DNA from: Sulfurimonas sp.
GTDB taxonomy: Bacteria > Campylobacterota > Campylobacteria > Campylobacterales > Sulfurimonadaceae
Reading direction: 5' to 3'
Assembly (NCBI GenBank): GCA_013791885.1
Contig: VMSZ01000008.1
Coordinates: forward strand, 1-64,000
DNA: 64,000 nucleotides
Part shown: one piece after another, positions 858 to 39,567 of the stretch
Layout of the letters: each line of letters begins with the position of its first letter
Position numbering within the stretch: the stretch's first letter is position 1
Program-made: the position numbers and the translations under genes
Notes under the pieces: generated by a model
Seen by the model: the letters and a program-made list of their open reading frames with translations, nothing else
Database searches by the model: none
What the model was told of the DNA's origin: nothing

Positions 858-3818
858 TTAAGCGCCCTCCACAATTATAATCTCTTCATCACTCAGCCCG
901 TAAAGTTCATACACCATTTTGTCTATCTCTTTGTCGGTTTTTTCTATCTCTGTTTTGTATCCGCTTGCCAAGGTTTTGTCGTTTTCAAAGATGGCTTGCC
1001 ACTCTTGTTTAAAGCTGCGTTCATGGAGTTTATCGGCAAATTTTAGTTTGAGGGCTTTTGTGTATTCTGTTACAAACTCCTCAAATGTCAGCTCTTCAAA
1101 GTTTTGGAGTTTTTTTGTGAGTTTTTCGAGTTTTAGTTCGTTTATGAAGTTTTGTTTTGTCTCTTGGAGGTTTTTGTTCAACTCCAGCATTTTGTCTGCT
1201 TTTTGGATGAATTCATGTTGAATAACAAAATTAATTTTTTTAATAGGTATTCTTGAAGTTATTGGACTATCAAAATGCATTGTTCGAATAGCTTTAGCAT
1301 AAATAAACCTATACACATACCAGTTTATTAAATTAGAATTTAATAATATCCAAATATATTCTTTTGGATAATCTTCATCCATTGTGATTTGATTTATGGT
1401 GTCTATAATAACACATTGAACATCTTGCGGTATTGTACAAATTATTTTTATATGGTCTATTGGATTTTCTATATGTGCAACTAAATTTTGAACCAATACG
1501 GAGTTATTATTAATATAAGATTGCTCTTTTGGAATATCTTTTTTATCAATTTGACCTTTAAAACTTCTAATCATATATCTATCAATATCAGCACCACCGA
1601 TTACATTTAATTCGGCATCACTTTTTATAAACTGCTGTAGACCAAATCCTCTTTTATTTTCCGCAACATCATTTAAAAATATAGACCCTTCTAGCATTTT
1701 ATTAGCAATTGATAATTCTATATTAGAAATGCCATTTAAAAAAAATCCAAATTTTGCAGATATTTTTTTATTTATAACACCAAGTTTTAAAATGTCTTGA
1801 TTTTTCAATATGTTTGAATCATATTCTTTTGTACTTGTTAATTTATCTAAAATTATCATTACTTGCTCAAGTTTAACTTCAGTCCAAACTTTTTTACAGT
1901 CTACCAATGATGTCAAGTTATTCCAAACATATTTTCTTATATCTTTATAATTTGATGAAAATACAAATGATTTAGGGATGATAAATCCTAGTTGTCCTTT
2001 GCTGCTTAATATATCAAAGCTCATTTTGACAAATAAAATAGCCGTATCGCTAGAATTCATATTGAATTTGCTTTTTAAAAAATCTTGATGTTCTTTTGAT
2101 AATTTTGCCCCATACGGCGGATTCCCAATCACAACATCAAATCCAGCTTGTGCGAAAACCTCTGGAAACTCTGCATACCAGTCAAAAGCGTTTGGTACTA
2201 CCGTTTTATCGCTTATGAGGGAGTTTCCTACTTTTATTTTATTGGCTAGTTTTGTGAGTGGTCTTCCTTTTTTTGCTGTGCGTAACCACAGGCTTAGCCT
2301 TGCTATCTCTACTGCGCCTTCGTTTATGTCCACGCCGTAAAGGTTGTGTTCTAGCACCTCTTTTTCCACCTCATACACGGCAAACAAATCTCCCATGAGC
2401 GCTAGGTCATTTTGGAGTCTTTTGTGTTCTTTGAGCAAGTATTCTAAGGCTTGGTTTAAAAATGCTCCACTTCCGCAAGCTGGGTCAAGGATTTTTAGGT
2501 TTAAAAGCCAGTTTTTGTACATGAGCAGATTTTCTTTTGTTTGTAACTCTTTTTTGTTTGGTTTTTGAGGGTTGATGATGGCTTCTACTTCGGTGATGTT
2601 TAGCTCAGAGCGTTTGTCTTCACACAACTTGCCAAGCGTGTTTTGTACGATGTACTCGGTGATGTACGCCGGTGTGTAAAAAACGCCGTCTTTCTTGCGT
2701 TTAGACTGCTTTTTGTCAAAGTCGCTTTCTAAAATCTGCGCACTCATCTCTTCAAGTTCGCTGATGGAGTTCTCAAAAATATGCCCCAAGATGTTTACAG
2801 AAATGTCGCTTCCAAAGTTGTAAGCAGAGAGAATTTTTGCTCTTGCATTTAGCACTTCATCGTCTATGATGAGCGCATCCAAAAATGCGTCATGAGCGAA
2901 AAGTCCGCCGTTGTACATGGTGATGTCTAAGTCCTCATCTCCTGCGTTTATGGCTTCAAAATAAACCTTGTAAGAGTCATAAAGCGTAAATGTTTTTACA
3001 AGTTTTTTGACTTCGCTTTGACGCGCGATAATCGTGCCGATGGTGTTTTTTGGCAAAAGGTCGGTGTCCTCGCCAAAGAGTATAAAGACGATGCGGTCTA
3101 TGAGTTTTTGTGTTGCGTTTAAGAGTTCGAGTTTGTCAATTTGAGGGTTCTTTTTGAGTATATTTTCAAAGAGATTAGTTCTAAACGCAGTGTAATCTTT
3201 GTAGAGTTTGTTAGAAATATCTTGCTCAAAGTTGAGTGATTTTTCTTTGATGGTTTGGGGAAGATTTTTGCTGATGCTCTCATAACTTAATATCGTGTGA
3301 AGCTTTGTAAAGCCTTCATAATCAAGGTCAAAAAGAAAAAATTGCTCATAAGCCGTGGCTTTGTCAAAGTAAAAACGCAGCTCATTGAAGTTGGAAACGA
3401 TGACGTATTTTGCATCGTTGTTGTGTTGCAAGTAGCCAAAAGCCTGACGCACAGCACTCTCGTCACGGTTGTATTTTTTGTCCAAATCTTTTGTTTTTTG
3501 GTCTTTTAACTCTATGACGGCTACAACTTTGCCATCAACCAAAAGCGCGCCGTCCGCTTTTTGAGCATTTGTCTCGTTCTTTTTTTCACGTTCTAGTGTG
3601 TAGTGCTCATTTACTGAGCGTGTTTTAGAAACATAACCAAGAGCATTTTCAAAAACATCTTCTAAAAAACCGTCTTGGTAATCGGTCTCAATCCATGAAG
3701 CAATCTTCTCTTTTTTCGCTAAAAATGTTTTGAACTTTTGCCATCTAAGTTCTATGAGTTTTTCATCTTGTTTGTCTATAAAATCGTTCAATACTTTTGG
3801 CTGAAAAAGTTGCTGCAT
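858..3818 (-). CDS. Type IIG restriction endonuclease / N6-adenine DNA methyltransferase (Eco57I-like)
   Basis: A single polypeptide of about 986 residues that should both cut and methylate DNA at its own site. Near the N-terminus DGALLVDGK...VIELKDQK (about residues 89-108) is a PD-(D/E)XK-type nuclease core. The SAM-binding motif DPACGSG is at about 445-451 and the catalytic NPPY of gamma-type N6-adenine methylases at about 566-569. The C-terminal third (roughly 1200-2090 on the DNA) is the expected target-recognition region and is distinctly more AT-rich than the nuclease and methylase parts. ATG 3818 is preferred over TTG 3821 because GAGAA sits six bases upstream. It is followed with no gap by the kinase gene. 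No separate specificity or restriction subunit is visible, consistent with type IIG. Confidence 0.88.
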   Translation of the reverse strand: MQQLFQPKVLNDFIDKQDEKLIELRWQKFKTFLAKKEKIASWIETDYQDGFLEDVFENALGYVSKTRSVNEHYTLEREKKNETNAQKADGALLVDGKVVAVIELKDQKTKDLDKKYNRDESAVRQAFGYLQHNNDAKYVIVSNFNELRFYFDKATAYEQFFLFDLDYEGFTKLHTILSYESISKNLPQTIKEKSLNFEQDISNKLYKDYTAFRTNLFENILKKNPQIDKLELLNATQKLIDRIVFILFGEDTDLLPKNTIGTIIARQSEVKKLVKTFTLYDSYKVYFEAINAGDEDLDITMYNGGLFAHDAFLDALIIDDEVLNARAKILSAYNFGSDISVNILGHIFENSISELEEMSAQILESDFDKKQSKRKKDGVFYTPAYITEYIVQNTLGKLCEDKRSELNITEVEAIINPQKPNKKELQTKENLLMYKNWLLNLKILDPACGSGAFLNQALEYLLKEHKRLQNDLALMGDLFAVYEVEKEVLEHNLYGVDINEGAVEIARLSLWLRTAKKGRPLTKLANKIKVGNSLISDKTVVPNAFDWYAEFPEVFAQAGFDVVIGNPPYGAKLSKEHQDFLKSKFNMNSSDTAILFVKMSFDILSSKGQLGFIIPKSFVFSSNYKDIRKYVWNNLTSLVDCKKVWTEVKLEQVMIILDKLTSTKEYDSNILKNQDILKLGVINKKISAKFGFFLNGISNIELSIANKMLEGSIFLNDVAENKRGFGLQQFIKSDAELNVIGGADIDRYMIRSFKGQIDKKDIPKEQSYINNNSVLVQNLVAHIENPIDHIKIICTIPQDVQCVIIDTINQITMDEDYPKEYIWILLNSNLINWYVYRFIYAKAIRTMHFDSPITSRIPIKKINFVIQHEFIQKADKMLELNKNLQETKQNFINELKLEKLTKKLQNFEELTFEEFVTEYTKALKLKFADKLHERSFKQEWQAIFENDKTLASGYKTEIEKTDKEIDKMVYELYGLSDEEIIIVEGA

Positions 3819-3847
3819 CAATATTTCTCGTTTGTAATTTTTACAAG

Positions 3848-3853
3848 ATTATA
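3848..3853 (-). promoter_or_regulatory. -10 box for the type IIG gene
   Basis: TATAAT on the minus strand, about 30 bases upstream of the restriction-modification start and inside the gap to the dihydroorotase-like gene. No good -35 is seen, as usual in this phylum. The rest of this gap (to 3956) shows nothing firm. Confidence 0.45.
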
Positions 3854-3956
3854 TAGAATACAACTTAAAACAACACGTTTAAAGTAAAGGTGAAAGCAGA
3901 ATGAAATTAAATGAAAGAAGAAAAGTGTTTAATCGAGCCGGGTATGAGGAGAGAGG

Positions 3957-5174
3957 TTAAAACCTGCTCACCTTAGCTTCTTGAAATGTCATAAAAACTT
4001 TTCCGTCTAAAACTTCCCCGTCATAAAGAGACTGAGAGTTTTGTATTGTTGTTTTTTCATTCACGTCAAACAAGAGCGCGCTTACTTTTTGACCAACTTT
4101 AAAAGTGCCGTATTCTAAACCTATGCTTCTTGCAGGGTTTGCTGCGGCAAGTTTTACGACATCACTCATGCTAATCATGCCGGACTTCACAAGTTTTTCA
4201 TAATAAAGACAAAGGGCATCTTCGATGGCTTCACAGCCGTACTCTGCATCATAAAACGCAACTTCTTTATTTACGGGAGAACTTGGCTGATGCAGCGTTG
4301 TAATGGCATCTATCTCTTTATTTTTAAGTGCTGCTTGAAGCAGTTGCACATCACTTAAACTCGCTAATGGCGGATTTATTTTAGCTGTAGTATTAAAGTT
4401 CTCACAAGCTTTGTCTGAATGGATGAGATGGTGAATAGAAACCTCACATTTTACATCTACTCCATCTTTTTTCGCTTGGCTTATGAGGTAAATAGAACGC
4501 GGTGAAGCGATGGATTTGAAAAGGATTTTAATTTTAAAGTGTCTTGCAATCTCTATCATACGGGAGACATGAAGCACTTCGCTTAAATCAGGTATGCCCG
4601 CAAGCCCAAGACTGGAGCTGACATCACCCTCAAGCATGACACCGCTGTTTATGAGTGAATTATCTTCAGCTTTGCAAAAAAGTGTGACATCATACATTTT
4701 GACATATTCGGCAATTTTAATGGCAAGATTATTTTTTGCAATAGTACTCATATAGGGTGCTACTGCTCCGCGTTTAAGTAAAATGGCAATATTACTCAGG
4801 GTTGCGTCTTCTTTAAGGGTGTTTAACATCAAATCTACTTTGGCACCTTTTAGCGTTCCAAGACTGTTTTGAGCAAATTCAAGTGCGACTTCATTATCTA
4901 TGGCTGGTGTAGAATTCGGATTTAAAACAACATGCCCGATTCCGCCTTTGAGAGCTTGATTTGAAAGAGCTTTGATATTGTTTGCGTTGAGTACAGAATC
5001 TTGTAAACTTACATTTAAATCTAGTAATAAAGGCATAAAGTAAGCCCCGCGAGCGTCTATTGTCTCACTGCCTTTTAAATTCTCACCTATCTCTTTAAGT
5101 ATTCCCTCTTCTATACGAACATCGGCTCTTCTCTCACCATTAGAATCACAAATAATTGCATTTGATATAACCAT
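3957..5174 (-). CDS. Dihydroorotase-like protein, probably catalytically inactive (PyrC' type)
   Basis: 405 residues with the amidohydrolase layout of the long dihydroorotase class. The metal-binding HxH after strand 1 is replaced: the segment reads PLLLDLNVSLQD, so both histidines are gone. The catalytic Asp region near the end reads TTLHQPSSP where active enzymes carry an Asp (typically DHAPH). A later histidine pair (SIHHLIHSD) remains. In many bacteria such non-catalytic homologues form a structural complex with aspartate carbamoyltransferase (PyrB), and a separate active PyrC does the chemistry; that role is inferred. pyrB is not in this window. ATG 5174 has AAGGTGG upstream. It shares a short divergent promoter region with the cytochrome gene. 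Confidence 0.82.
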   Translation of the reverse strand: MVISNAIICDSNGERRADVRIEEGILKEIGENLKGSETIDARGAYFMPLLLDLNVSLQDSVLNANNIKALSNQALKGGIGHVVLNPNSTPAIDNEVALEFAQNSLGTLKGAKVDLMLNTLKEDATLSNIAILLKRGAVAPYMSTIAKNNLAIKIAEYVKMYDVTLFCKAEDNSLINSGVMLEGDVSSSLGLAGIPDLSEVLHVSRMIEIARHFKIKILFKSIASPRSIYLISQAKKDGVDVKCEVSIHHLIHSDKACENFNTTAKINPPLASLSDVQLLQAALKNKEIDAITTLHQPSSPVNKEVAFYDAEYGCEAIEDALCLYYEKLVKSGMISMSDVVKLAAANPARSIGLEYGTFKVGQKVSALLFDVNEKTTIQNSQSLYDGEVLDGKVFMTFQEAKVSRF

Positions 5175-28548: not shown

Positions 28549-29562
28549 ATGAAAATAGTACTCTCTCTTGCATTAGCGTCAGCCTCACTGATGGCTTCAA
28601 ACTTAGTAAATCAGGCGACTGAAGCTGGATTAAAACCTATTCCCGCATCAAAAACAGAGCTTATGAAACTCATTAATGACCCAAAAAATAACATTACAAA
28701 TAAAAAAATAGAACTTGGAAAAAAGCTCTATTTTGACCCGAGACTCTCAAAAAGCGGACTTATCAGTTGTAACACTTGTCACAACCTCAGTGAAGGTGGC
28801 GATGACGGTGTACCTGCTGCAATCGGTCATAAATGGGCAATGAATCCACATCACCTCAACTCTCCTACTGTTTATAACGCGGTATTTTTTGACGCTCAGT
28901 TCTGGGATGGCCGTGCAAAAGATTTAGAAGAACAGGCACAAGGACCTATTCAGGCACACCCGGAGATGGCGGCTACACAAGAGCATGTAGAACAAACCGT
29001 GACTTCTATGCCTGAATATGTAGCTGAGTTTAAAGCGGCATACGGCAAAGATGTAAAAATTGACTTCGTAAAAGTAACGGACACAATCGGTCTTTTTGAG
29101 AGAACACTTGTCACTCCATCTGCTTACGATGACTTCCTAAACGGCAAAAAAGATGCAATGACTCCTGCGCAAAAAGAGGGTTTAAAAACTTTCATAGACA
29201 AAGGTTGTGCTACCTGTCACACAGGCATCTCTCTTGGTCAAGGCATGAATGCATTTAATGTCACGGCAACATATAAATTTCAGGATGTCGGTGATTTTAA
29301 AGGTGATGCAAACAATATGGTTAAAGTTCCGACACTCAGAAATATTACACAAACTGCACCATACTTCCATAATGGTCAAGTATGGAGCTTAAAAGAAGCT
29401 ATTGTTGAAATGGGACGTATCCAGCTTGGAGCTGAAATTACAGACAAAGAAGCATCTTCAATAGAAGAGTTCCTAAAAGCTCTTGATGGAAGAAAACCTG
29501 CGCTTATGCTTCCTATACTTCCGGCTTCAACTGCTACAACTCCAAAACCGGATATGAACTAA
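28549..29562 (+). CDS. Di-haem cytochrome c peroxidase
   Basis: 337 residues with a signal peptide (IVLSLALASASLMA) and two haem motifs: CNTCHNLSEGGDD (about 75-87) and CATCHTG (about 222-228). FFDAQFWDGRAKDLEEQA and PYFHNGQVWSLKEAI are typical of bacterial di-haem peroxidases, which reduce hydrogen peroxide to water in the periplasm with electrons from a small cytochrome. The paired PerR-like boxes upstream support peroxide or iron control. It is monocistronic, followed by a strong hairpin. Confidence 0.95.
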   Translation: MKIVLSLALASASLMASNLVNQATEAGLKPIPASKTELMKLINDPKNNITNKKIELGKKLYFDPRLSKSGLISCNTCHNLSEGGDDGVPAAIGHKWAMNPHHLNSPTVYNAVFFDAQFWDGRAKDLEEQAQGPIQAHPEMAATQEHVEQTVTSMPEYVAEFKAAYGKDVKIDFVKVTDTIGLFERTLVTPSAYDDFLNGKKDAMTPAQKEGLKTFIDKGCATCHTGISLGQGMNAFNVTATYKFQDVGDFKGDANNMVKVPTLRNITQTAPYFHNGQVWSLKEAIVEMGRIQLGAEITDKEASSIEEFLKALDGRKPALMLPILPASTATTPKPDMN

Positions 29563-29600: not shown

Positions 29601-29622
29601 GGCAGGGACAGATGTCCCTGCC
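29601..29622. terminator. Perfect hairpin after the peroxidase gene
   Basis: GGCAGGGACA-GA-TGTCCCTGCC, ten-base perfect arms and a very tight loop, GC-rich against an AT-rich background, 38 bases after the stop. No T run follows on the plus strand; T-rich sequence precedes it. A second weaker repeat AAACG ... CGTTT follows at about 29628-29645. Confidence 0.55.
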
Positions 29623-29750: not shown

Positions 29751-30161
29751 ATGAAACTATTGCTTCTAGCAGCTACTTTACTTTTAGCTTCAAACATAAA
29801 CGCTAAAGATGTTGTATTGGATACGGGTACATCTCTGCTCTGGCAAGATGCTCCTGATAATAAAGACCTTTCCATAACCTACCCCGAAGCACAGGAATAT
29901 TGCTCCAAACTTGTTATTGCCGAATATAGCGATTTTAGACTGCCTACACTTTATGAACTCCAAACAATTGTTGATTATGCAAAATATAAGCCTGCAATTC
30001 TTGAAGGCTTCAAGCATGTAGCTAATGAAACTTATTGGACTACGACAATTTTTGCTGACGATTCCCAAGAGTTGTGGACAATAAACTTCAAAAAAGGTGA
30101 GAGAAGTGTCAAGGCGAAACATTACGACAGAAATGTAAGATGTGTACAAAAGCTACAATAG
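29751..30161 (+). CDS. Secreted DUF1566 (Lcl-domain) protein, first copy
   Basis: 136 residues: signal peptide (LLLLAATLLLASNINA) and one DUF1566 domain (about 20-135) with LLWQDAP, YCSKL, DFRLPTLYELQTIVDY, YWTTT and RNVRCV. The domain is common in secreted or surface proteins and related to C-type-lectin-like folds; no enzymatic role is known. It overlaps the MEMO1-AMMECR1 gene by 22 bases, a tight coupling that suggests a shared task. Confidence 0.85.
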   Translation: MKLLLLAATLLLASNINAKDVVLDTGTSLLWQDAPDNKDLSITYPEAQEYCSKLVIAEYSDFRLPTLYELQTIVDYAKYKPAILEGFKHVANETYWTTTIFADDSQELWTINFKKGERSVKAKHYDRNVRCVQKLQ

Positions 30162-31585
30162 CTTTTCTTTTTTTATTGGTTTTTACTCTGCAAAATGTTC
30201 AAGCACTCAGGCCTTCTGCCGTAGCCGGTTCATTTTATGAAAACGATAAAGAGAACCTTTCTGTTTATGTTAAAACCCTGCTGGAAAATGCTAAAACATT
30301 TCAAAAGCAAGAGATAAACGCCATTATTGTCCCTCATGCCGGTTATGTTTTTTCAGCGCCTACGGCAGTTATTGCCTATAAGACACTCCATAAAAAATAT
30401 AAAAATATTTTTCTCATAGGTTCAAGCCATTATGCCGACTTTGACGGTGCTTCAATTTTTACAGATGGAAATTACAAGACACCTTTGGGAGAAGTCCAAG
30501 TTAATCAAGAGATTATAACTTCTCTTCAAAAAAGCTCTCCTCTTTTTACCTATATTCCTGATGCTCATACAAAAGAGCACAGTCTTGAAGTTCAACTGCC
30601 GTTTTTACAAACCATCTATGGAAACTCTTTACAAATTATTCCCATTATTATAGGAACTTCAGAGCTTAAGAGTATTGAGCAGATAGCCCAAGCCCTTAAA
30701 CCTTATTTTAATGAAGAGAATCTTTTTGTCATAAGCAGTGATTTGTCTCACTACCCTGCTTATAAAGATGCAAACGCAGCAGATGCACAGACACTTGAGG
30801 CGCTGAGTAAAAACTCACCAAAAGAACTCCTAAACGCAATGAGTAAAAATGAAAATTTATTTATTCCAAATCTCCAAACATCCGCTTGTGGCTGGAGCTC
30901 ACTTCTGATGCTTTTGTATGTAACGCAAGATGAAAACTATACATACGAACTGCTTGACTACACTAACTCAGGCGATACAAAATACGGTGACAAAAAAAAA
31001 GTTGTAGGTTATGGAGCGCTACGAATTTATAAAGAATCACAGAAGTTTTTTCTCACAAGTGATGAAAAACAAGAGCTTCGCAACATTGCAAAACTCTCGC
31101 TTTATGAAGCTGCTTTGAAAAACAAAAAAATTTCTCTGGATGCAGACAAAATTTCTGAAAAACTCAAACTTCCGGTCGGAGCTTTTGTGACACTTTATAA
31201 GAATGGTGTTCTTAGAGGCTGTATAGGAACATTTGAGCCCAAAGAACCTCTTTACAAAGTTGTCGCAGAGATGGCGCAGGCTGCCGCACAAAATGATACA
31301 CGCTTTGAAAAAGTAAGCTCCGAAGAACTTGACAAAATAGAATTGGAAATCTCCGTTCTTACCCCTCGTCAGCAGATACATTCGCTTGATGAAATAATCT
31401 TAGGAAAACATGGTATTTACATACAAAAAGGTGCAAAAAACGGGACGTTTTTACCTCATGTTGCCATAGAAATGGGTTGGAATGCAGAACAATTTGTCGG
31501 CTACTGCGCAGAAGAAAAAGCAGGTATTGGTTATGACGGCTACAAAAATGCCAATCTCTATATCTATGAAGCAATAGTTTTTTAG
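30140..31585 (+). CDS. Exported MEMO1-AMMECR1 fusion (AmmeMemoRadiSam system B+A)
   Basis: 481 residues. An N-terminal signal sequence (IAFLFLLVFTLQNVQA) precedes a MEMO1-like domain (about 24-290) that keeps the proposed metal ligands: His in VPHAGYVFS, His in GSSHYADFDG and Cys in SACGWSSLL, together with HSLEVQLPFL and SSDLSHYP. An AMMECR1 domain (about 305-480) follows with the LRGCIGTF motif. In many microbes these two proteins occur with a radical SAM enzyme (AmmeMemoRadiSam); here they are fused and exported, and no radical SAM gene is nearby. The activity is unknown. ATG 30140 lies inside the preceding DUF1566 gene, and a second DUF1566 gene follows. Confidence 0.9.
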   Translation: MCTKATIAFLFLLVFTLQNVQALRPSAVAGSFYENDKENLSVYVKTLLENAKTFQKQEINAIIVPHAGYVFSAPTAVIAYKTLHKKYKNIFLIGSSHYADFDGASIFTDGNYKTPLGEVQVNQEIITSLQKSSPLFTYIPDAHTKEHSLEVQLPFLQTIYGNSLQIIPIIIGTSELKSIEQIAQALKPYFNEENLFVISSDLSHYPAYKDANAADAQTLEALSKNSPKELLNAMSKNENLFIPNLQTSACGWSSLLMLLYVTQDENYTYELLDYTNSGDTKYGDKKKVVGYGALRIYKESQKFFLTSDEKQELRNIAKLSLYEAALKNKKISLDADKISEKLKLPVGAFVTLYKNGVLRGCIGTFEPKEPLYKVVAEMAQAAAQNDTRFEKVSSEELDKIELEISVLTPRQQIHSLDEIILGKHGIYIQKGAKNGTFLPHVAIEMGWNAEQFVGYCAEEKAGIGYDGYKNANLYIYEAIVF

Positions 31586-31608
31586 TTAAATCAATAAAAG
31601 GAAAAAAA

Positions 31609-32088
31609 ATGATAAAAATAAGTTTAGCTGCAGCACTCAGTGCTACTATCGCATCCGCATGGTTTATGCCGAGCATAAGTTTTGGAGGTGCTGGAGATGA
31701 CAGTAATACGCATGTAGATAAAAACTTCGTCAGGGATGATGCGATAAAATTGGTGCAGGATACCAAAAACGCAAAGCTTTATTATGATGCAAAACCATCT
31801 GATAAAATGCATTTTTTTGAAGCCTGGGAATATTGCAAAAACATGGATTATCAAGGATTTGACGACTGGAGAGTTATCACAAAAGAAGAAGCCGTATCGC
31901 TACTTGAACTCTCTAGAAGACAAGTCAATGTCAAACATGCTTTTAAAAATGTCCAAGAAGATCTTTATTGGACATCAACTGAAGATAGGTATGAAGAGGC
32001 CTGGGTTGTTGATTTTGATTTAGGAAGATATAGTACAAAAAAACAGACAAATAAATATCGTGTTATTTGTGTAACAGAAGCGAAATAA
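31609..32088 (+). CDS. Secreted DUF1566 (Lcl-domain) protein, second copy
   Basis: 159 residues: signal peptide (ISLAAALSATIASA), a short glycine-rich stretch, then DUF1566 (YCKNMDYQGFDDWRVITKEEAVSLL, YWTSTED, KYRVICV). It lies 23 bases after the MEMO1-AMMECR1 fusion with AAGGAAAA upstream, so all three genes form one operon. It is only distantly similar to the first copy. Confidence 0.85.
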   Translation: MIKISLAAALSATIASAWFMPSISFGGAGDDSNTHVDKNFVRDDAIKLVQDTKNAKLYYDAKPSDKMHFFEAWEYCKNMDYQGFDDWRVITKEEAVSLLELSRRQVNVKHAFKNVQEDLYWTSTEDRYEEAWVVDFDLGRYSTKKQTNKYRVICVTEAK

Positions 32089-32215: not shown

Positions 32216-33580
32216 TTGTTAGAAACAGAAAATGAACTTCATAAAAAGTTTTGGGAAATTTTTTCAAAACAAGACAGACAGAAGATTGATGAATTTAAAA
32301 ATCATATGGATAAATTTGCAATTAATTTTAATCTTTACAAGGACGGTAACTTCATAGAACGGTCTCTACCCTTTGATGTGGTTCCGCGTATAATTTCAAA
32401 GCAGGAGTTTTCAAAAATTGAAAAAGGGCTCCAGCAGAGGGTCCAAGCTCTTAATATGTTTTTAGAAGATTTATATACTGATGCAAAAATAGTCAAAGAA
32501 GGGATTGTCCCCCAAGAGTTTGTTGAACAGGCAAGCGGCTACTTAAAAGAATTCAAAGGCTTTTCTCCATCTAAAAAGATAAGAACACACATCAACGGTA
32601 TTGACCTTGTAAAAGATACCAAAAATGACGAGTGGGTTATTTTGGAAGACAATCTTAGAGTTCCAAGCGGTTCTAGTTACCCTCTTTCTATTAGAGATAC
32701 TTACAGAAAAATTTATCCTGATTTTTTTGAACAACTCAAAATTGAGCCTATTAAGCAGTACCCGAGTTACATCAAAGGCGCGATGAATCATGTAAACTGT
32801 GGCGGAATAAATGTCGTTCTCACTCCGGGTAGATTTAACTCAGCCTATTATGAACATAGCTATTTGGCTCAAGAAATGGATGCTCAGCTAGTGCGTGCAC
32901 ATGAGCTTGAAGTCATAGATAAAAAAGTTTACTTCAAAAACTACAACGGCAAACGCATTCGTGTAGGTTCGATTTACAGAAGACTTGATGATGAGTTTAT
33001 TGATCCGAAATTTTTTAATCCTGAGAGTCTCATTGGTGTTCCTGGAATTGTAGAAGCGTATTTGGCAGGGAATGTTGCTCTTATGAATGCTATCGGTAAC
33101 GGTGTTGCCGATGACAAAGGTATCTACTACTTTGTTCCTAAAATGATTAAATACTACCTTGGAGAAGAACCAATCCTTCAAAACGCACCGACATACTTGC
33201 CATATTTTAAAGAAGATATGGAATATGTTTTTAACAACATTGAAAAACTTGTTATTAAAGATGTTGCAGAAGCCGGCGGATATGGCGTTTTATTTGGGCA
33301 TGAGATGAGTAAACTACAACTTGAAGACTTAAAGGTAGCTATTAAAGCAAATCCAAGAAGATTTATAGCTCAAGAGCTTATAGAATTTTACGATGAAAAA
33401 TGCTACCTTGACAAAGAACTCAAAGACAGAAAAGCGGACTTTAGAGCTTACGTAGTTATGGGTGAAGATATTAAAGTATGGCAGTGCGGTTTAACAAGAT
33501 ACGCTCTTGAAGCCGGAAACTATTTGGTGAACTCCTCACAAGGCGGCGGATTTAAAGATACATGGGTAATGGAGTTATAA
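32216..33580 (+). CDS. Circularly permuted ATP-grasp protein (DUF404/DUF407 type)
   Basis: 454 residues. The family is predicted to ligate a carboxylate to an amine using ATP. Seen: VLTPGRFNSAYYEHSYLAQ, IYRRLDDEFIDP, GVPGIVEAYLAGNVALMNAIGNGVADDK and YLGEEPILQNAPTYL, all family blocks, with the GVADDK acidic motif intact. TTG 32216 follows a good GAGAGG. The alpha-E gene starts one base after its stop. It is a paralogue of the N-terminal half of the fused protein at 37078-39567. No signal peptide, so cytoplasmic. Confidence 0.9.
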   Translation: MLETENELHKKFWEIFSKQDRQKIDEFKNHMDKFAINFNLYKDGNFIERSLPFDVVPRIISKQEFSKIEKGLQQRVQALNMFLEDLYTDAKIVKEGIVPQEFVEQASGYLKEFKGFSPSKKIRTHINGIDLVKDTKNDEWVILEDNLRVPSGSSYPLSIRDTYRKIYPDFFEQLKIEPIKQYPSYIKGAMNHVNCGGINVVLTPGRFNSAYYEHSYLAQEMDAQLVRAHELEVIDKKVYFKNYNGKRIRVGSIYRRLDDEFIDPKFFNPESLIGVPGIVEAYLAGNVALMNAIGNGVADDKGIYYFVPKMIKYYLGEEPILQNAPTYLPYFKEDMEYVFNNIEKLVIKDVAEAGGYGVLFGHEMSKLQLEDLKVAIKANPRRFIAQELIEFYDEKCYLDKELKDRKADFRAYVVMGEDIKVWQCGLTRYALEAGNYLVNSSQGGGFKDTWVMEL

Positions 33581-33581
33581 G

Positions 33582-34253
33582 ATGGAACAACTATTAACAG
33601 CAAACGTAGCGACAAACCTTTACTGGCTTGGAAGATATATAGAGAGAACAGAAGGAACACTTACTCAGATTATGGTTGCATTTGATCAGATTATAGATGT
33701 AAATAAGAATGCAGGTGTTGAGCTTTATGAAAATTTCAGTACTGAACTCGCTTATGATAGTGCTCAGGATTTTTTAAACAAAGCAATGTTTGGGGATCAC
33801 TCTGCAAATTTAACTGCAATAACCGGCTATGCCAGAGAGAACGCAATCATTAGTCGTAATCATCTCAATGCTCAAGCTTTTGGAGAAATTATAGCACTTC
33901 ATGCTCTCTTCCAAAAATCTTCTAATGATCTTATTGAGATTGATTATAAACTTATAGACAATGCGCACTCTCTTATCAGTGAAATGTGGGGTGAAATCTC
34001 TAAAACTGAGTATAAAAGAATAAGTGACTACTTTTTAAGACTTGGTCAACTTGTCGAAAAAGCGGACTTTAACTTCAGATTTGATGAGAATAAGGAAACC
34101 GGTATAGTTATTATTGAAGAGATACATAAAATCTTGCAAAGCTTAGATGAAGACAAAGTAGTAAAAGTAGAGCAAAAGCAAACGCAAGAGCTAGATTATG
34201 AAGCAATCATAAATGATATCCACCAAAGAATAGAAAGTTTAATCGTAAACTAA
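33582..34253 (+). CDS. Alpha-E domain protein (DUF403)
   Basis: 223 residues, all-helical. The start (LTANVATNLYWLGRYIERTEGTLTQI) is the DUF403 signature. Alpha-E proteins accompany circularly permuted ATP-grasp enzymes in predicted peptide or amide synthesis operons; the biochemical role is not known. It is somewhat shorter than the roughly 310-residue form. Its stop overlaps the next gene by one base. Confidence 0.88.
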   Translation: MEQLLTANVATNLYWLGRYIERTEGTLTQIMVAFDQIIDVNKNAGVELYENFSTELAYDSAQDFLNKAMFGDHSANLTAITGYARENAIISRNHLNAQAFGEIIALHALFQKSSNDLIEIDYKLIDNAHSLISEMWGEISKTEYKRISDYFLRLGQLVEKADFNFRFDENKETGIVIIEEIHKILQSLDEDKVVKVEQKQTQELDYEAIINDIHQRIESLIVN

Positions 34254-35203
34254 TGCAGATAATGGAAATTTTTTCATCCAAACTGCCTGTTGGTGAAAAC
34301 CTCGTTATAAAAAAAAGCAGATTTGAGCCACTTGCCAAGCATGACGGTTCAAAGCGTATCAGTATTGTAAGCGGTATACACGGAGATGAGCTAGAGGGCC
34401 AGTATGTTACCTATCTGCTTGCTTCTTGGCTCAAAGCGAACCCAAACGCAATCAGAGGAATTATAGACATTTATCCGGGTGTTAACGCCTTGGGGATTGA
34501 CTCCATTACAAGAGGCTTTCCTCTCTATGAAGTGGACTTGAACAGAGTTTTTCCCGGAGGAGAAGATGAATTTCTTCCAGGACAGCTTGTCCATGCATTA
34601 GCACTAGATGTCAAAGGGAGCGATATTGCCATAGATATTCACTCTTCAAATATATTTCTACGTGAAATTCCCCAAATTCGTATTAACAAAGAGTTCTCAA
34701 ACGCAACCCTTCCTCTTGCAAAGGAGCTCAACTGCGACTTTATCTGGATTCATGACGCAGTCACCGTTCTTGAAGCAACATTCTCGCATACGCTCAACAC
34801 CTTAGGAACCAAAACTTTAGTTGTGGAAATGGGTGTTGGAATGCGTCTGACCAAAGAGTATGGTTTTCAACTTCTCACCGGAATTTTGAACCTTATGAAA
34901 AAAGAAGGCATTATAGAAACAGATGAAGCGTTTGAAGTAAGAGAGCCTTTTTCTTCTGAAGTCGGAGATGTTTTTTATCTCAATTCACCTACGAGCGGAC
35001 TCTTTGTTCCCGCGCTCAGCCACTGTGATATCATCAAACAAGATGATAAAATCGGTGATATTGTCAACCCACTCACAGGAGAGATAATCGAAACACTTTT
35101 TGCTCCGCATGATGGCATCCTCTTTACGCTTCGAGAGTATCCGGTTGTCTACGAGGGTTCACTTATTGCAAGAATTTTTGGAGGTTCTGATGAAAAAAAT
35201 TGA
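34253..35203 (+). CDS. AstE/aspartoacylase-like zinc amidohydrolase, apparently active copy
   Basis: 316 residues of the succinylglutamate desuccinylase/aspartoacylase (M14-like) family. Metal and substrate residues are all present: HGDELEG (Zn His and Glu), VDLNRVFPGG (Asn-Arg), DIHSS (second Zn His) and VVEMG (catalytic Glu). A C-terminal beta domain follows (about 225-310). It could hydrolyse an amide or acyl-amino acid made by the upstream ligase (inference). It is followed by a degenerate paralogue whose start overlaps its end by 14 bases. Confidence 0.87.
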   Translation: MQIMEIFSSKLPVGENLVIKKSRFEPLAKHDGSKRISIVSGIHGDELEGQYVTYLLASWLKANPNAIRGIIDIYPGVNALGIDSITRGFPLYEVDLNRVFPGGEDEFLPGQLVHALALDVKGSDIAIDIHSSNIFLREIPQIRINKEFSNATLPLAKELNCDFIWIHDAVTVLEATFSHTLNTLGTKTLVVEMGVGMRLTKEYGFQLLTGILNLMKKEGIIETDEAFEVREPFSSEVGDVFYLNSPTSGLFVPALSHCDIIKQDDKIGDIVNPLTGEIIETLFAPHDGILFTLREYPVVYEGSLIARIFGGSDEKN

Positions 35204-36122
35204 AATATTCAAACTCACTTCACTCAACCGTGAACCTCTTCTTGTTGAAGGCTACCTTTTTGAGGGCAGCGACCCGGAAGCTCCGAGTGTAGCAATCGTT
35301 GGAGCGATGGAGGGAAAAACTATTTTACCGCTTTACAGCGCTTCAAAACTCATTGACTTTTTAAAAAACAGTATTAGTGATTCTAAAAAAATTCTTGGGA
35401 ATATTTTGATTATTCCTTCCATTAATCACTACGCTTTGAACATTAACGAGCGATTTTGGCCGCTTGACAAAACAAACCTTAATATGATGTTTCCGGGGTA
35501 TGACAAAGGTGAAACAACACAACGCATAGCTAAAAAAGTTTTCGACGCCATTGAAGGCTATACTCATGGGATTATTTTAGAGACCAGAGAAGATTTATCT
35601 ACCTGTATGCCCTATGTTAAAGAGTTTAAATCCGGTTTTGAAGATTTGGAAGATGCTAAAAAATTTGGTCTTAAAATCATTCACTACAAAGCGCTTAGAC
35701 CTACAGACACGGTTTCACTTCAGTACAACTGGCAGCTTTGGGGTACAAAAGCGCACTCAATTGTCTGTCCGGGTGAAACAGAGCTCAATGAAAACTCCGA
35801 TGAAATTTTTGAGTCACTTGTGAATTATCTCAATAAAAACAATATCATCAAACACAAGTTTTTAAGTGCTTACGAATCTGCAATTATCACTTCAGAGGAT
35901 ATTGAAATTATTAAAACGCCAAAAAGCGGTATTTTTATTCCTACAAAAAAAATAGGAACACAAGTGATAGAAGATGAAATTATAGGCAAAGTACTCCACT
36001 CACTTGAAGGAAAGGTAATCCATAAAATAATTGCTCCATGCAACGGAGTTATTACCTGTTCTTACAAAAATGCTCTGATTTTAGAAAACGCGGTGGCTTT
36101 TAGGATTATAAAAAATTCCTAA
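35190..36122 (+). CDS. AstE-like paralogue lacking metal ligands (pseudo-enzyme candidate)
   Basis: 310 residues from ATG 35190, which has GGAGG six bases upstream; the longer frame to 35100 lies inside the previous gene. It aligns along its length with the preceding protein, but the key positions differ: HGDE is replaced by MEGK (VGAMEGKTI), NLNR by NLNM, DIHSS by LETRE and VEMG by CPGE. Hence the zinc site should be absent. The fold and C-terminal domain look intact, so a structural or regulatory partner of the active copy is more likely than decay. It ends two bases from the convergent transglutaminase gene. Confidence 0.8.
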   Translation: MKKIEIFKLTSLNREPLLVEGYLFEGSDPEAPSVAIVGAMEGKTILPLYSASKLIDFLKNSISDSKKILGNILIIPSINHYALNINERFWPLDKTNLNMMFPGYDKGETTQRIAKKVFDAIEGYTHGIILETREDLSTCMPYVKEFKSGFEDLEDAKKFGLKIIHYKALRPTDTVSLQYNWQLWGTKAHSIVCPGETELNENSDEIFESLVNYLNKNNIIKHKFLSAYESAIITSEDIEIIKTPKSGIFIPTKKIGTQVIEDEIIGKVLHSLEGKVIHKIIAPCNGVITCSYKNALILENAVAFRIIKNS

Positions 36123-36124
36123 TT

Positions 36125-37075
36125 TCACTGCGTTTGCGTTTGATTTTTAAAGCCGAAAAAGCTTTGTGACTGCGTTTGCTCTTGCATCTGTTCTTTTCTT
36201 ACATCTACCATGACTGAAAGTTGACTGTTTCCACTGCTAAAAACTACCCCTTTGAGCGGCGCAATATCTGCATAATCTCTTCCATAACCCAAGAGTATAT
36301 GTTGTTCCCGCGGTAAAAGATTATTGGTTGGGTCAAACTCAATCCAGCCTGCGTTTGGAATATACAGCGAAAACCAGGCATGCGAAGCATCCGCTCCGAA
36401 GAGTTTTTTTTCTCCCTCAGGAGGAAGTGTTTCAATGTAACCGCTTACATATTTACATGGAAGTCCTATACCCCTTATCGCACTGATTGCCAGCTGCGCA
36501 AAATCCTGACAGACACCTTTTTTTGCTTCAAAAATTTCACTGATAGGGGTTGTAACATCACTAAAACCGGAGACAAATTCAAAATCGTTATAAATTCTTC
36601 CCATAAATTCGTTCGCTGCTTCAAAAAGATCACGTTCTTCTTTAAAAGATTCCAAAGCATACTCTTTAATGGCCTCTGTTGCCTTTGGAATGAGCGCTGA
36701 ATCAAAGATAAACTGCTTTGCATCTACATCAGCTTGTACAAAACTCTTCAGCCGCTCTTTGGCGGCTTTAAAAGTAATGCTGTTTTGTCTAATGTTTTGT
36801 ATATGTGCCTCTATTAACTCCGGGAAAATTTCAACTCTTGATCTGCCAATGACAGTTAAAGAATGATGTGAATTTTTTATCAGTATATGCGTATTAGTAT
36901 TCTCAAACATATCCACAAAGTCACTTTTTTCAAAGGGAAACGCATCGATTTCAAGAGAAAAATCCAACAGTTTTTGATACTGCGTTTCTCTTGGTTTAAG
37001 TCTAGCCATATTATGGCTGTAAGTCACCATACTTTGGTATCTAAATTCTGTTTTGTGGTAAATATTATAAATCAT
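36125..37075 (-). CDS. Transglutaminase-like protein
   Basis: 316 residues: bacterial transglutaminase N-terminal domain (about 1-85; YNIYHKTEFRYQ) and core (about 150-265) with Cys189 in KKGVCQDFAQLA, His in SHAWFSLYIP and Asp in IEFDPTNN. The family can act as a protease or an amide exchanger. The C-terminus is low-complexity Gln/Thr-rich (QSQSFFGFKNQTQTQ) and its DNA holds three copies of the TGCGTTT word. It is the last gene of the minus-strand amidoligase operon, two bases after the fused ATP-grasp gene. Confidence 0.88.
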   Translation of the reverse strand: MIYNIYHKTEFRYQSMVTYSHNMARLKPRETQYQKLLDFSLEIDAFPFEKSDFVDMFENTNTHILIKNSHHSLTVIGRSRVEIFPELIEAHIQNIRQNSITFKAAKERLKSFVQADVDAKQFIFDSALIPKATEAIKEYALESFKEERDLFEAANEFMGRIYNDFEFVSGFSDVTTPISEIFEAKKGVCQDFAQLAISAIRGIGLPCKYVSGYIETLPPEGEKKLFGADASHAWFSLYIPNAGWIEFDPTNNLLPREQHILLGYGRDYADIAPLKGVVFSSGNSQLSVMVDVRKEQMQEQTQSQSFFGFKNQTQTQ

Positions 37076-37077
37076 TT

Positions 37078-39567
37078 CTACTCATCATTATGCGAAAAAT
37101 ATGTTTTTGTAAACTCGTTGGAACAATCAATGTAAAGTTGAGACAACTCTGAAAGAATGGTATCAAACTCAAAATAGATAACATCATTACTTTGTAATTT
37201 TAACACTTTAGAAATTTCCAGAGATTCTAAAATTTGATATGCTTTTTGTATCGGCTCTTCGTAGGAACTTGCAATTTCTTTAGCTTTTGGAAGCATTTTA
37301 AAATCATCTAAGAGTTCCTTACAGACATAAATAATTGACTTTGGAAACTGTTTATTTAAAATCACAAACTCAATAACATTTTCCAGAATAAGAGAACTTT
37401 TGTAGTGCGCTCTGTAGGCGTTAAAACTCTCTTTCGTATGCAGTAGAGAGTCTAAAATGTCATATTCCATGGACTTATCAATGTCAAGAGTCATCAATGA
37501 GCGGCATAAAGAGAGAAGTAAAATTGTATCCTCAATTTTAGAACCTATTTCGTATAACAAAAGCCCCTGCTCCTTAAAAATACTCTCTTGAACCAATTCT
37601 TTATAGGCCATCAGATAAATAAGTGTATTTTCAAGCTTGCCTGCTATAAATATATTTGATTTATTAGTGCTGTTTAAAAATCCAAGCCACTCATTTTTCA
37701 TCTTATCATGCAGTTTCCAGGACTCCATGGCCAAGATGTCTTTGAGATTCAGGTTCGTATTAAAGAGCATCTTAAATGTATATGTAAGACTTCCCGGACG
37801 CGAGGAGTCTTTTATGACAGATAAAATTTCACTTATTGCCTCATCATTTGAGCTTGTTTTTACCGACAAAAAGCCGGGATATGTCATTGTCAAATGCGTG
37901 AGCGCCTTATGCAGTATCTCTTGAGACTCTTTTGTGCTGTACATATCATATCTGTAAAAACTTGCCATTTTTTTTACAATCTGCAGAATAAATCTCGTTG
38001 TGGTAATAGAACGGGCAAGGTAACGTCCAAGCCAAAAAAGGTTTTCTGCTTTGAGTGTCGAGAGATTGTCAATGGAAGTGTCTATATACTTTGAGTACTT
38101 AAAACTGTTAAGTATGCAAAGCTCTACATCATCTTTACCTAAAATCCATAAATCCTTACTTGTTCCGCCTTTTTGAGACGAGACAAGAAGTGTGTCTTTT
38201 GTAGCTGAAACACGGACAAGTCCTCCGTTCATTACAGAATAATCATCTCCAATTTTAACACTAAAGGCACGAATAGCTGCGTTTCTTGGCTCTATATTTT
38301 TGTTTGCATAAAATGGTATAGTAGAGAAATTAATTTCTTCCTGTGCAACATACTGGTACGGATTTTGGATTATTTTAGTTCTTAAAACCTCTAATTCTTC
38401 CAGACTCATTTTTCTACAAAAATATGCTTCTACACTCACTGTTCTGTCAATATTTTTGACAATTAAAGTCTCAAGATTTTTCAGCACAAATTTCAGTGCT
38501 TTTTCCTGTCCGCACCACCATGTGGCTATCTGGGGCAAAATAAGTTTTTCGCCTAAAAGATACTCGCACGCTTTCTCCATAAATGGATTGAGTCCAATAT
38601 TTTCCAATATTGCACTGCCAATGGGATTGAGAAGGTTAACATTTTCATCCCTATAAACATCCAAAAGTCCGGCGACACCCAAACGTGAGTCATTTTGAAG
38701 TTCAAGAGGATCACAATATCTGTCATCAACCCTGCGTAAAAGTGTTTGTACTTTTTTTAAACCGCCAAGGCTTTTGAGCCAAAGTGTGTCATTTTTTACA
38801 AGTAAATCATCCCCTTGTGCAAGAATAATATTGAGATACGAACTTAAAAAAGAGTGCTCAAAATAAGTTTCATTGTATGGCCCGGGGGTCAGTAAAACAG
38901 AAACATTATCCGTTCCTGCAGTGAGCTTGGTAAAAAGATTTCTAAAATCTTCAAAAAAATGAAAAAGTCTTTTTCTTGATATCTCCGGATATAAACCTTT
39001 TGAGATGGCATTCATCGTAAGTCTGTTTTCAAGAGCATAACCAAGACCTGAAGGAGCCTGCGTTCTGTCGTTGATAACCCACATTTTTCCATCAGGCCCT
39101 CTTGCCATATCTGTGGCATAAAAATAGAGGTTGAAATTATCTTTGCTCCCAAAGTTGTATGCTTCTGTAGCAAAACCTTTGTGAGCAAAAATAACTTCCG
39201 CAGGTATAATATTTTCTTTGATGAGTTTACGCTGGGAGTATAAATCTTTTAAAATCAGATTTAATAACTTTGCTCTTTGTTTAAGTCCGGCAGCAGTTTC
39301 ATCCCATTCCTGTGAAGATATCACAAGAGGAATCGGGTCCAAACTCCATGAACGATTGACTTTTGCATCTAAGTTTTCATAAACATTATAGGTAACATCA
39401 TTCTCTTTTAAAAACCAGTCAATCTCACTCTGCTTGGCTTCCAATTCTTCAAAAGTGGAAGATTTTAAACTCTCTAAAATCTCCTGCCACTGAGGTTTTA
39501 CATTTTTATCTTTATCGAACATCTCATCCTGAGATGATTTTAACTCATACCCGTCGAAAATCTGCAT
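37078..39567 (-). CDS. Circularly permuted ATP-grasp fused to alpha-E domain
   Basis: 829 residues: ATP-grasp part about 1-490 (LLTPGPYNETYFEHSF, LRRVDDRYCDPLELQ, LPQIATWWCG) and alpha-E part about 510-825 (LKAENLFWLGRYLARSITT). This fused form is known in proteobacteria. In the loop where the single-domain paralogue has GVADDK this one has GSAILEN, as in the fused subfamily, so the two ligases probably differ in substrate or activity. Stop and start are directly adjacent to the DUF2126 gene upstream. Confidence 0.9.
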   Translation of the reverse strand: MQIFDGYELKSSQDEMFDKDKNVKPQWQEILESLKSSTFEELEAKQSEIDWFLKENDVTYNVYENLDAKVNRSWSLDPIPLVISSQEWDETAAGLKQRAKLLNLILKDLYSQRKLIKENIIPAEVIFAHKGFATEAYNFGSKDNFNLYFYATDMARGPDGKMWVINDRTQAPSGLGYALENRLTMNAISKGLYPEISRKRLFHFFEDFRNLFTKLTAGTDNVSVLLTPGPYNETYFEHSFLSSYLNIILAQGDDLLVKNDTLWLKSLGGLKKVQTLLRRVDDRYCDPLELQNDSRLGVAGLLDVYRDENVNLLNPIGSAILENIGLNPFMEKACEYLLGEKLILPQIATWWCGQEKALKFVLKNLETLIVKNIDRTVSVEAYFCRKMSLEELEVLRTKIIQNPYQYVAQEEINFSTIPFYANKNIEPRNAAIRAFSVKIGDDYSVMNGGLVRVSATKDTLLVSSQKGGTSKDLWILGKDDVELCILNSFKYSKYIDTSIDNLSTLKAENLFWLGRYLARSITTTRFILQIVKKMASFYRYDMYSTKESQEILHKALTHLTMTYPGFLSVKTSSNDEAISEILSVIKDSSRPGSLTYTFKMLFNTNLNLKDILAMESWKLHDKMKNEWLGFLNSTNKSNIFIAGKLENTLIYLMAYKELVQESIFKEQGLLLYEIGSKIEDTILLLSLCRSLMTLDIDKSMEYDILDSLLHTKESFNAYRAHYKSSLILENVIEFVILNKQFPKSIIYVCKELLDDFKMLPKAKEIASSYEEPIQKAYQILESLEISKVLKLQSNDVIYFEFDTILSELSQLYIDCSNEFTKTYFSHNDE

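Follow-up and report, generated by a model that had tools for sequence, protein, structure and literature searches.

The 64,000-nt stretch of DNA analysed here (the window), from a sulfur-oxidising bacterium of the genus Sulfurimonas, encodes a fusion of MEMO and AMMECR1 domains that is predicted to be exported to the periplasm and that is a real, conserved, compartment-shifted variant of the AmmeMemoRadiSam system. The fusion gene is overlapped by a gene for a small secreted-type protein, LclA, and the pair recurs in other genomes of the genus. The puzzling proteins MEMO and AMMECR1 occur from archaea to humans and are normally taken as working inside the cell; human MEMO1 is connected with cell motility and iron handling, and AMMECR1 with a developmental syndrome. 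A natural extracytoplasmic fusion, set apart from most metabolites and accompanied by one small partner, would narrow the range of possible substrates and provide a compact system for biochemistry, and its relatives in Bacteroidota raise the unusual possibility that a radical SAM enzyme is itself exported.

Gene organization of the locus

LclA, the fusion, and a second Lcl_C protein, LclB, are encoded by three genes on the same strand in the window, which derives from a 2.52-Mb genome. The features are as follows.

28549..29562, + strand: di-haem cytochrome c peroxidase/MauG-like gene (CCP_MauG, 9.5e-53)
29751..30161, + strand: LclA, Lcl_C/DUF1566 protein of 136 aa with predicted export (Pfam Lcl_C, 2.6e-23)
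30140..31585, + strand: MEMO-AMMECR1 fusion, 481 aa, export predicted (TIGR04336 and TIGR04335)
30140..30205, + strand: signal peptide of the fusion, residues 1-22, predicted cleavage between VQA and LRP (sequence, hydropathy)
30140..30161, + strand: overlap of LclA and the fusion, 22 nt (from the sequence; 13 further loci overlap by 22 or 25 nt)
30209..31021, + strand: MEMO domain, residues 24-294, carrying the ligands H66, H97, and C250 and the neighbours D201 and H204
31076..31582, + strand: AMMECR1 domain, residues 313-481, with LRGCIG motif containing Cys361
31609..32088, + strand: LclB, second Lcl_C protein with predicted export (Lcl_C, 5.3e-17)

The ATG-TGT start of the fusion lies inside the conserved Arg-Cys codons of LclA, the same codons being reused, and LclB starts 23 nt downstream of the fusion, with no overlap. 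The peroxidase gene is separated from LclA by a 188-nt gap and is probably a unit distinct from the LclA-fusion pair. This gap contains a perfect 10-bp inverted repeat, GGCAGGGACA-GA-TGTCCCTGCC, at positions 29601-29622, possibly a terminator or a regulatory site; a promoter and terminator scan gave matches no more numerous than in shuffled sequences. On the other side, positions 32216-39567 adjoin the locus and hold, besides circularly permuted ATP-grasp genes, two genes of deacylase-like type and one each of alpha-E-like and transglutaminase-like type, with all identities judged by eye except that of the ATP-grasp gene at 32216.

Domains, metal site, and export signal of the fusion

Both parts of the fusion score above the curated cut-offs, TIGR04336 with 239 bits (cut-off 26; 5.3e-71) over residues 24-294 and TIGR04335 with 154.6 bits (cut-off 99; 1.6e-45) over residues 313-481, and the corresponding Pfam families are also matched (Memo, 1.4e-55; AMMECR1, 5.4e-46), in agreement with the first-pass annotation of this DNA, made from the sequence alone, which had described fused A and B components. 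The AlphaFold2 model of the fusion (pLDDT 87.6) matches human MEMO1 (7kq8) and archaeal AMMECR1 (1vaj, 1zq7), followed by extradiol dioxygenases; the residues that meet between the two domains are not resolved in this model.

The first 22 residues, MCTKATIAFLFLLVFTLQNVQA, followed by LRPSAVAG, form a classical Sec-type signal peptide as judged by hydropathy and inspection, the means by which signal peptides were called in this study. They precede the conserved MEMO start RPxAVAGxFY, whereas the canonical MEMO protein of the same genome has no signal peptide and begins almost at this motif. The fusion is thus predicted to be exported to the periplasm.

The Fe and Cu ligands of human MEMO1, H49, H81, and C244 (PMC11081632), align with H66, H97, and C250 of the fusion. 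These residues, the metal-binding His, His, and Cys that had been reported as retained, are invariant in all 62 aligned sequences, and the same is true of D201 and H204. His147 is conserved about as well as the metal ligands, and Cys361 of the AMMECR1 domain is kept in every aligned sequence that reaches this position. The invariance of the ligands, D201, and H204 and the retention of Cys361 clearly place the active-site residues under purifying selection, and the fusion is predicted to be loaded with Fe or Cu at H66/H97/C250. An additional CxxC is present at the mature N-terminus of two exported fusions of other Sulfurimonas genomes (L083 and L085; RPCAVCG and RECVVCG).

Conservation of the LclA-fusion pair in Sulfurimonas

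The fusion is present in 19 of 135 genomes of the genus. In 18 of the 19 proteins the signal peptide is kept as an N-terminal hydrophobic extension, 18-25 residues long and variable in sequence, so that the signal peptide noted at first has held up as a prediction. LclA lies upstream of the fusion and overlaps it by 22 or 25 nt in 14 of the 19 loci, and the recurrence of both features shows that they are not due to chance. The association is therefore not confined to this genome; such confinement was what the first-pass annotation had named as fatal to its reading.

The pairs are found in four or five genomic contexts: after pdxA, where the di-haem peroxidase gene may or may not be present; after an amidohydrolase-like gene; next to two genes for proteins of 133 and 214 aa; and next to two potassium-uptake-like genes (several of these neighbour names were assigned by eye). 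Comparison of the loci supports movement of the LclA-fusion pair as a unit. The peroxidase gene is a recurrent neighbour at the pdxA site; as an obligatory partner it was rejected, being absent beside most of the relocated pairs.

LclA is missing from five fusion loci (L077, L083-L085, and L086). In L077 the fusion also has no signal peptide, whereas the fusions of L083-L085 keep it. In L086 (G307:C1:150675-152091) there is no LclA upstream and the fusion frame is broken near residue 409, which reflects either decay or a sequencing error. Since four of the five fusions lacking LclA retain the signal peptide, LclA is not essential to the exported fusion. Another 14 Sulfurimonas genomes have lone AMMECR1 genes with no signal peptide (L088-L101), mostly located after the same kind of peroxidase gene. 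In a FastTree phylogeny these genes are placed within the clade of Sulfurimonas fusions (support 0.995), so that the simplest account of their origin is that the signal peptide and the MEMO domain were lost.

LclA matches the Pfam family PF07603 with 83 bits (gathering score 34.9) and has a signal peptide, MKLLLLAATLLLASNINA, recognized by inspection. Its residues Cys51 and Cys131 are invariant among the Sulfurimonas fusion loci with LclA. The AlphaFold2 model of LclA is poor (pLDDT 42) and unusable for fold assignment, and the sequence match to the Legionella Lcl structure 8q4e is insignificant (E 0.17). The Legionella Lcl domain has a C-type-lectin-like fold and binds glycosaminoglycans (PMC11162425); by analogy, glycan recognition by LclA is a possible lead. 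The earlier claim that two Lcl proteins are locked in with the fusion stands for LclA but not for LclB, which we rejected as a conserved partner because only three of the 19 loci, those of the window, L073, and L080, have it next to the fusion. One more Lcl_C protein is encoded elsewhere in the same genome (G000:C29:20844-21503), in a frame of 261 codons that apparently holds two Lcl_C domains.

Canonical AmmeMemoRadiSam genes and radical SAM enzymes in Sulfurimonas

On another contig (C26) of the same genome, AMMECR1, the radical SAM enzyme, and MEMO are encoded by overlapping genes, none of them with an export signal, and the proteins of this operon are apparently cytoplasmic, as far as their sequences tell. 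As a complete canonical operon exists elsewhere in the genome, the exported fusion is an additional copy, that is, a second, compartment-shifted module and not a replacement of the canonical system. The radical SAM partner that was to be sought elsewhere thus exists, but only within this operon and with no export signal: C26:55101-56084 is the sole match to TIGR04337 in the genome. The search of the genome found neither a hidden second enzyme of this kind nor a Tat-tagged one, and the neighbourhood of the fusion contains no TIGR04337 match.

Among 26 Sulfurimonas genomes searched, no radical SAM gene was found at a fusion locus, and none of the radical SAM N-termini read in this search bears an export signal. 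The exported fusion is the sole MEMO/AMMECR1 match in three genomes, G199, G258, and G228, in which a radical SAM gene is present but unlinked; in the first two, each 99% complete, its product has no export signal. In G292 (94% complete) the exported fusion is present with no radical SAM match. The exported module works either independently of a radical SAM enzyme or across the membrane, the first being the simpler reading. Many Sulfurimonas genomes contain a second, unlinked type of radical SAM protein of 341-343 aa (MSxxAWLSKKL...), with no MEMO or AMMECR1 gene adjacent (L153-L160, L162, L166, L167, and L172).

Origin of the fusion and its Bacteroidota relatives

In a tree of 61 fusions and three canonical pairs, the Sulfurimonas fusions form one clade (100/100) nested in the fusions of Bacteroidota, with inner supports of 81/85 and 89/88 and with 99/96 for the outer starred node. 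Near-full-length matches to the fusion are limited to the genus Sulfurimonas within a 199-genome sample of its order. The simplest reading of these sequence data is a single horizontal transfer from a Bacteroidota-like donor; the donor phylum is provisional, the phyla compared being that of the Sulfurimonas order and Bacteroidota.

The fusion is found in 54 of 149 sampled Bacteroidales genomes. Of 42 fusions of Bacteroidota whose N-termini were read, 40 have export signals, which are lipoprotein-like in 28. Many Bacteroidota encode, next to the fusion, a protein of ~700-830 aa whose spermidine-synthase-like domain (PF01564) is flanked by two bundles of membrane segments, as well as a radical SAM protein of about 370-400 aa, in which CxxxCxxC is kept where the protein is full length. 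The N-terminus of this enzyme has the pattern [KR]RxF[LIV] and then a Gly/Ala-rich stretch of weak hydrophobicity and resembles a Tat signal, in contrast to the shorter radical SAM proteins of the canonical kind, which have no such N-terminus. The complete set, that is, the fusion, the multi-TM spermidine-synthase-like protein, and the radical SAM protein with a Tat-like KRxF[LI], was observed in L135, L136, L138, L139, L143-L145, L147, L149, L152, L189-L192, L195-L197, L207, and L208. A radical SAM protein of the same family in L193 (positions 3524-4795; G381) has no Tat-like start and carries a transmembrane anchor (MNKKKRIIFAVAIALVLVAGWALV) at its N-terminus instead.

All 25 genomes of the Bacteroidales sample in which a Tat-like radical SAM N-terminus was read belong to the 54 fusion-bearing genomes, as do six more, judged by profile start only. 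The hypergeometric probability of this co-occurrence, 1e-13, is indicative only, since it ignores relatedness and the genomes read had first been chosen for the fusion. The radical SAM search of the whole sample, compared by eye, gave no Tat-type match by profile start in fusion-negative genomes. Almost all of the Tat-like N-termini contain KR and not RR; one scanned protein with a true RR pair scores 13.9 against the cut-off of 16.7 of the NCBIfam Tat model TIGR01409, and those with KR are not listed. The presence of TatC proved uninformative as a discriminator: 36 of the 38 genomes encode it, among them the ones whose radical SAM protein is untagged. A search of 11 Sulfurimonas genomes for the spermidine-synthase-like protein gave no convincing homologue, the only match being one at 3e-4 in the genome studied here.

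Because the Bacteroidota relatives are accompanied by a Tat-like radical SAM protein and a membrane spermidine-synthase-like protein, independence from radical SAM in Sulfurimonas looks secondary. The original suggestion of a variant working without this enzyme agrees with what is seen at the locus and with the lack of an export-tagged enzyme in the genome, but the state appears to be derived. Somewhat speculatively, and with the balance of our judgement leaning against it, a Tat-exported radical SAM enzyme of Bacteroidota might act outside the cytoplasm together with the lipoprotein fusion and the membrane spermidine-synthase-like protein, perhaps connected with the supply of SAM, and the Sulfurimonas module might be a stripped-down descendant in which the radical SAM enzyme and the synthase-like protein were swapped for a lectin-like partner. 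What we consider the most interesting aspect of this locus is the place of the fusion in an exported branch that may, in Bacteroidota, extend to a radical SAM enzyme.

Possible function of the exported module

The explanation that we favour, with about even confidence in it as a whole, is a horizontally acquired, exported MEMO-AMMECR1 module that would act with LclA as a periplasmic metal-dependent enzyme, with no radical SAM enzyme in its own compartment. The MEMO domain would bind Fe(II), or Cu(I), in an extradiol-dioxygenase-like pocket and could catalyze a metal-dependent reaction, oxidative or otherwise, on a substrate outside the cytoplasm. The fused AMMECR1 domain may handle a second step or hold the substrate via Cys361, and LclA, as a putative C-type-lectin-like domain, may present or recognize this substrate, possibly a glycan or an envelope component. 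The module would run with no radical SAM enzyme on its side of the membrane, although its Bacteroidota-like ancestors probably had one. The five loci devoid of LclA and the L077 fusion, which has no signal peptide, count against this explanation. So does the fact that MEMO1 is not known to have any enzymatic activity, none having been found with standard dioxygenase substrates (PMC11081632).

The last observation, along with the binding of iron and copper by MEMO1 via the same three residues (PMC11081632, PMC9477392) and the invariance of these ligands in the fusion alignment, would also suit a periplasmic Fe or Cu buffer or chaperone devoid of enzymatic activity, with LclA as a structural or anchoring partner. 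Yet a simple buffer would have no need of D201, H204, H147, and Cys361, which are about as conserved as the ligands, and the recurrent radical SAM link in the relatives suggests chemistry, so that we regard such a role as rather unlikely, if the strongest of the competing proposals. Cooperation of the exported fusion with a cytoplasmic radical SAM enzyme, with a product or cofactor crossing the membrane, is in our view improbable. It would give the enzymes of G199 and G258 a MEMO/AMMECR1 partner, no other having been found in these genomes, and would suit L040 and L041, where a fusion with a signal peptide abuts or overlaps a radical SAM gene whose product has no export signal; on the other hand, the radical SAM gene of the present genome is accompanied in its operon by AMMECR1 and MEMO genes, and G292 combines an exported fusion with no radical SAM match.

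The pairing with LclA might also be incidental, LclA being a generic secreted domain and the overlap being kept by coding constraint. Lcl_C proteins are widespread, at least one further Lcl protein is encoded in this genome, and not every fusion locus has LclA; nevertheless, the pair occurs in its four or five settings with nearly the same overlap, which requires joint movement or retention, and we consider a fortuitous pairing the least probable of these explanations.

Comparison with known systems

LclA and LclB resemble the C-terminal DUF1566 domain of Legionella Lcl (8q4e) in that both match Pfam Lcl_C. However, LclA is a single-domain protein with no collagen repeats, and it has an invariant Cys pair, whereas the Legionella domain has no disulfides. 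With human MEMO1 (7kq8, 7l5c) the fusion shares the fold and the Fe/Cu ligands; MEMO1 differs in consisting of a single MEMO domain, with neither a signal peptide nor an AMMECR1 part. The fusions of Bacteroidota (L104-L132 and L173-L176) have the same domain order, about 43-49% identity, and exported-type N-termini, but they are mostly lipoprotein-like and often accompanied by the spermidine-synthase-like membrane protein and the Tat-like radical SAM protein; no Lcl gene was noticed among the neighbours that were inspected.

No exported form of AmmeMemoRadiSam (TIGR04335/TIGR04336/TIGR04337) was found in the papers searched. The protein described here contains component A (AMMECR1) of that system as well as component B (MEMO), and it differs from it in that the two are fused, a signal peptide is added, and the locus has LclA coupled to the fusion instead of a radical SAM gene, the absence of which is why we do not file the fusion as a full member of AmmeMemoRadiSam.
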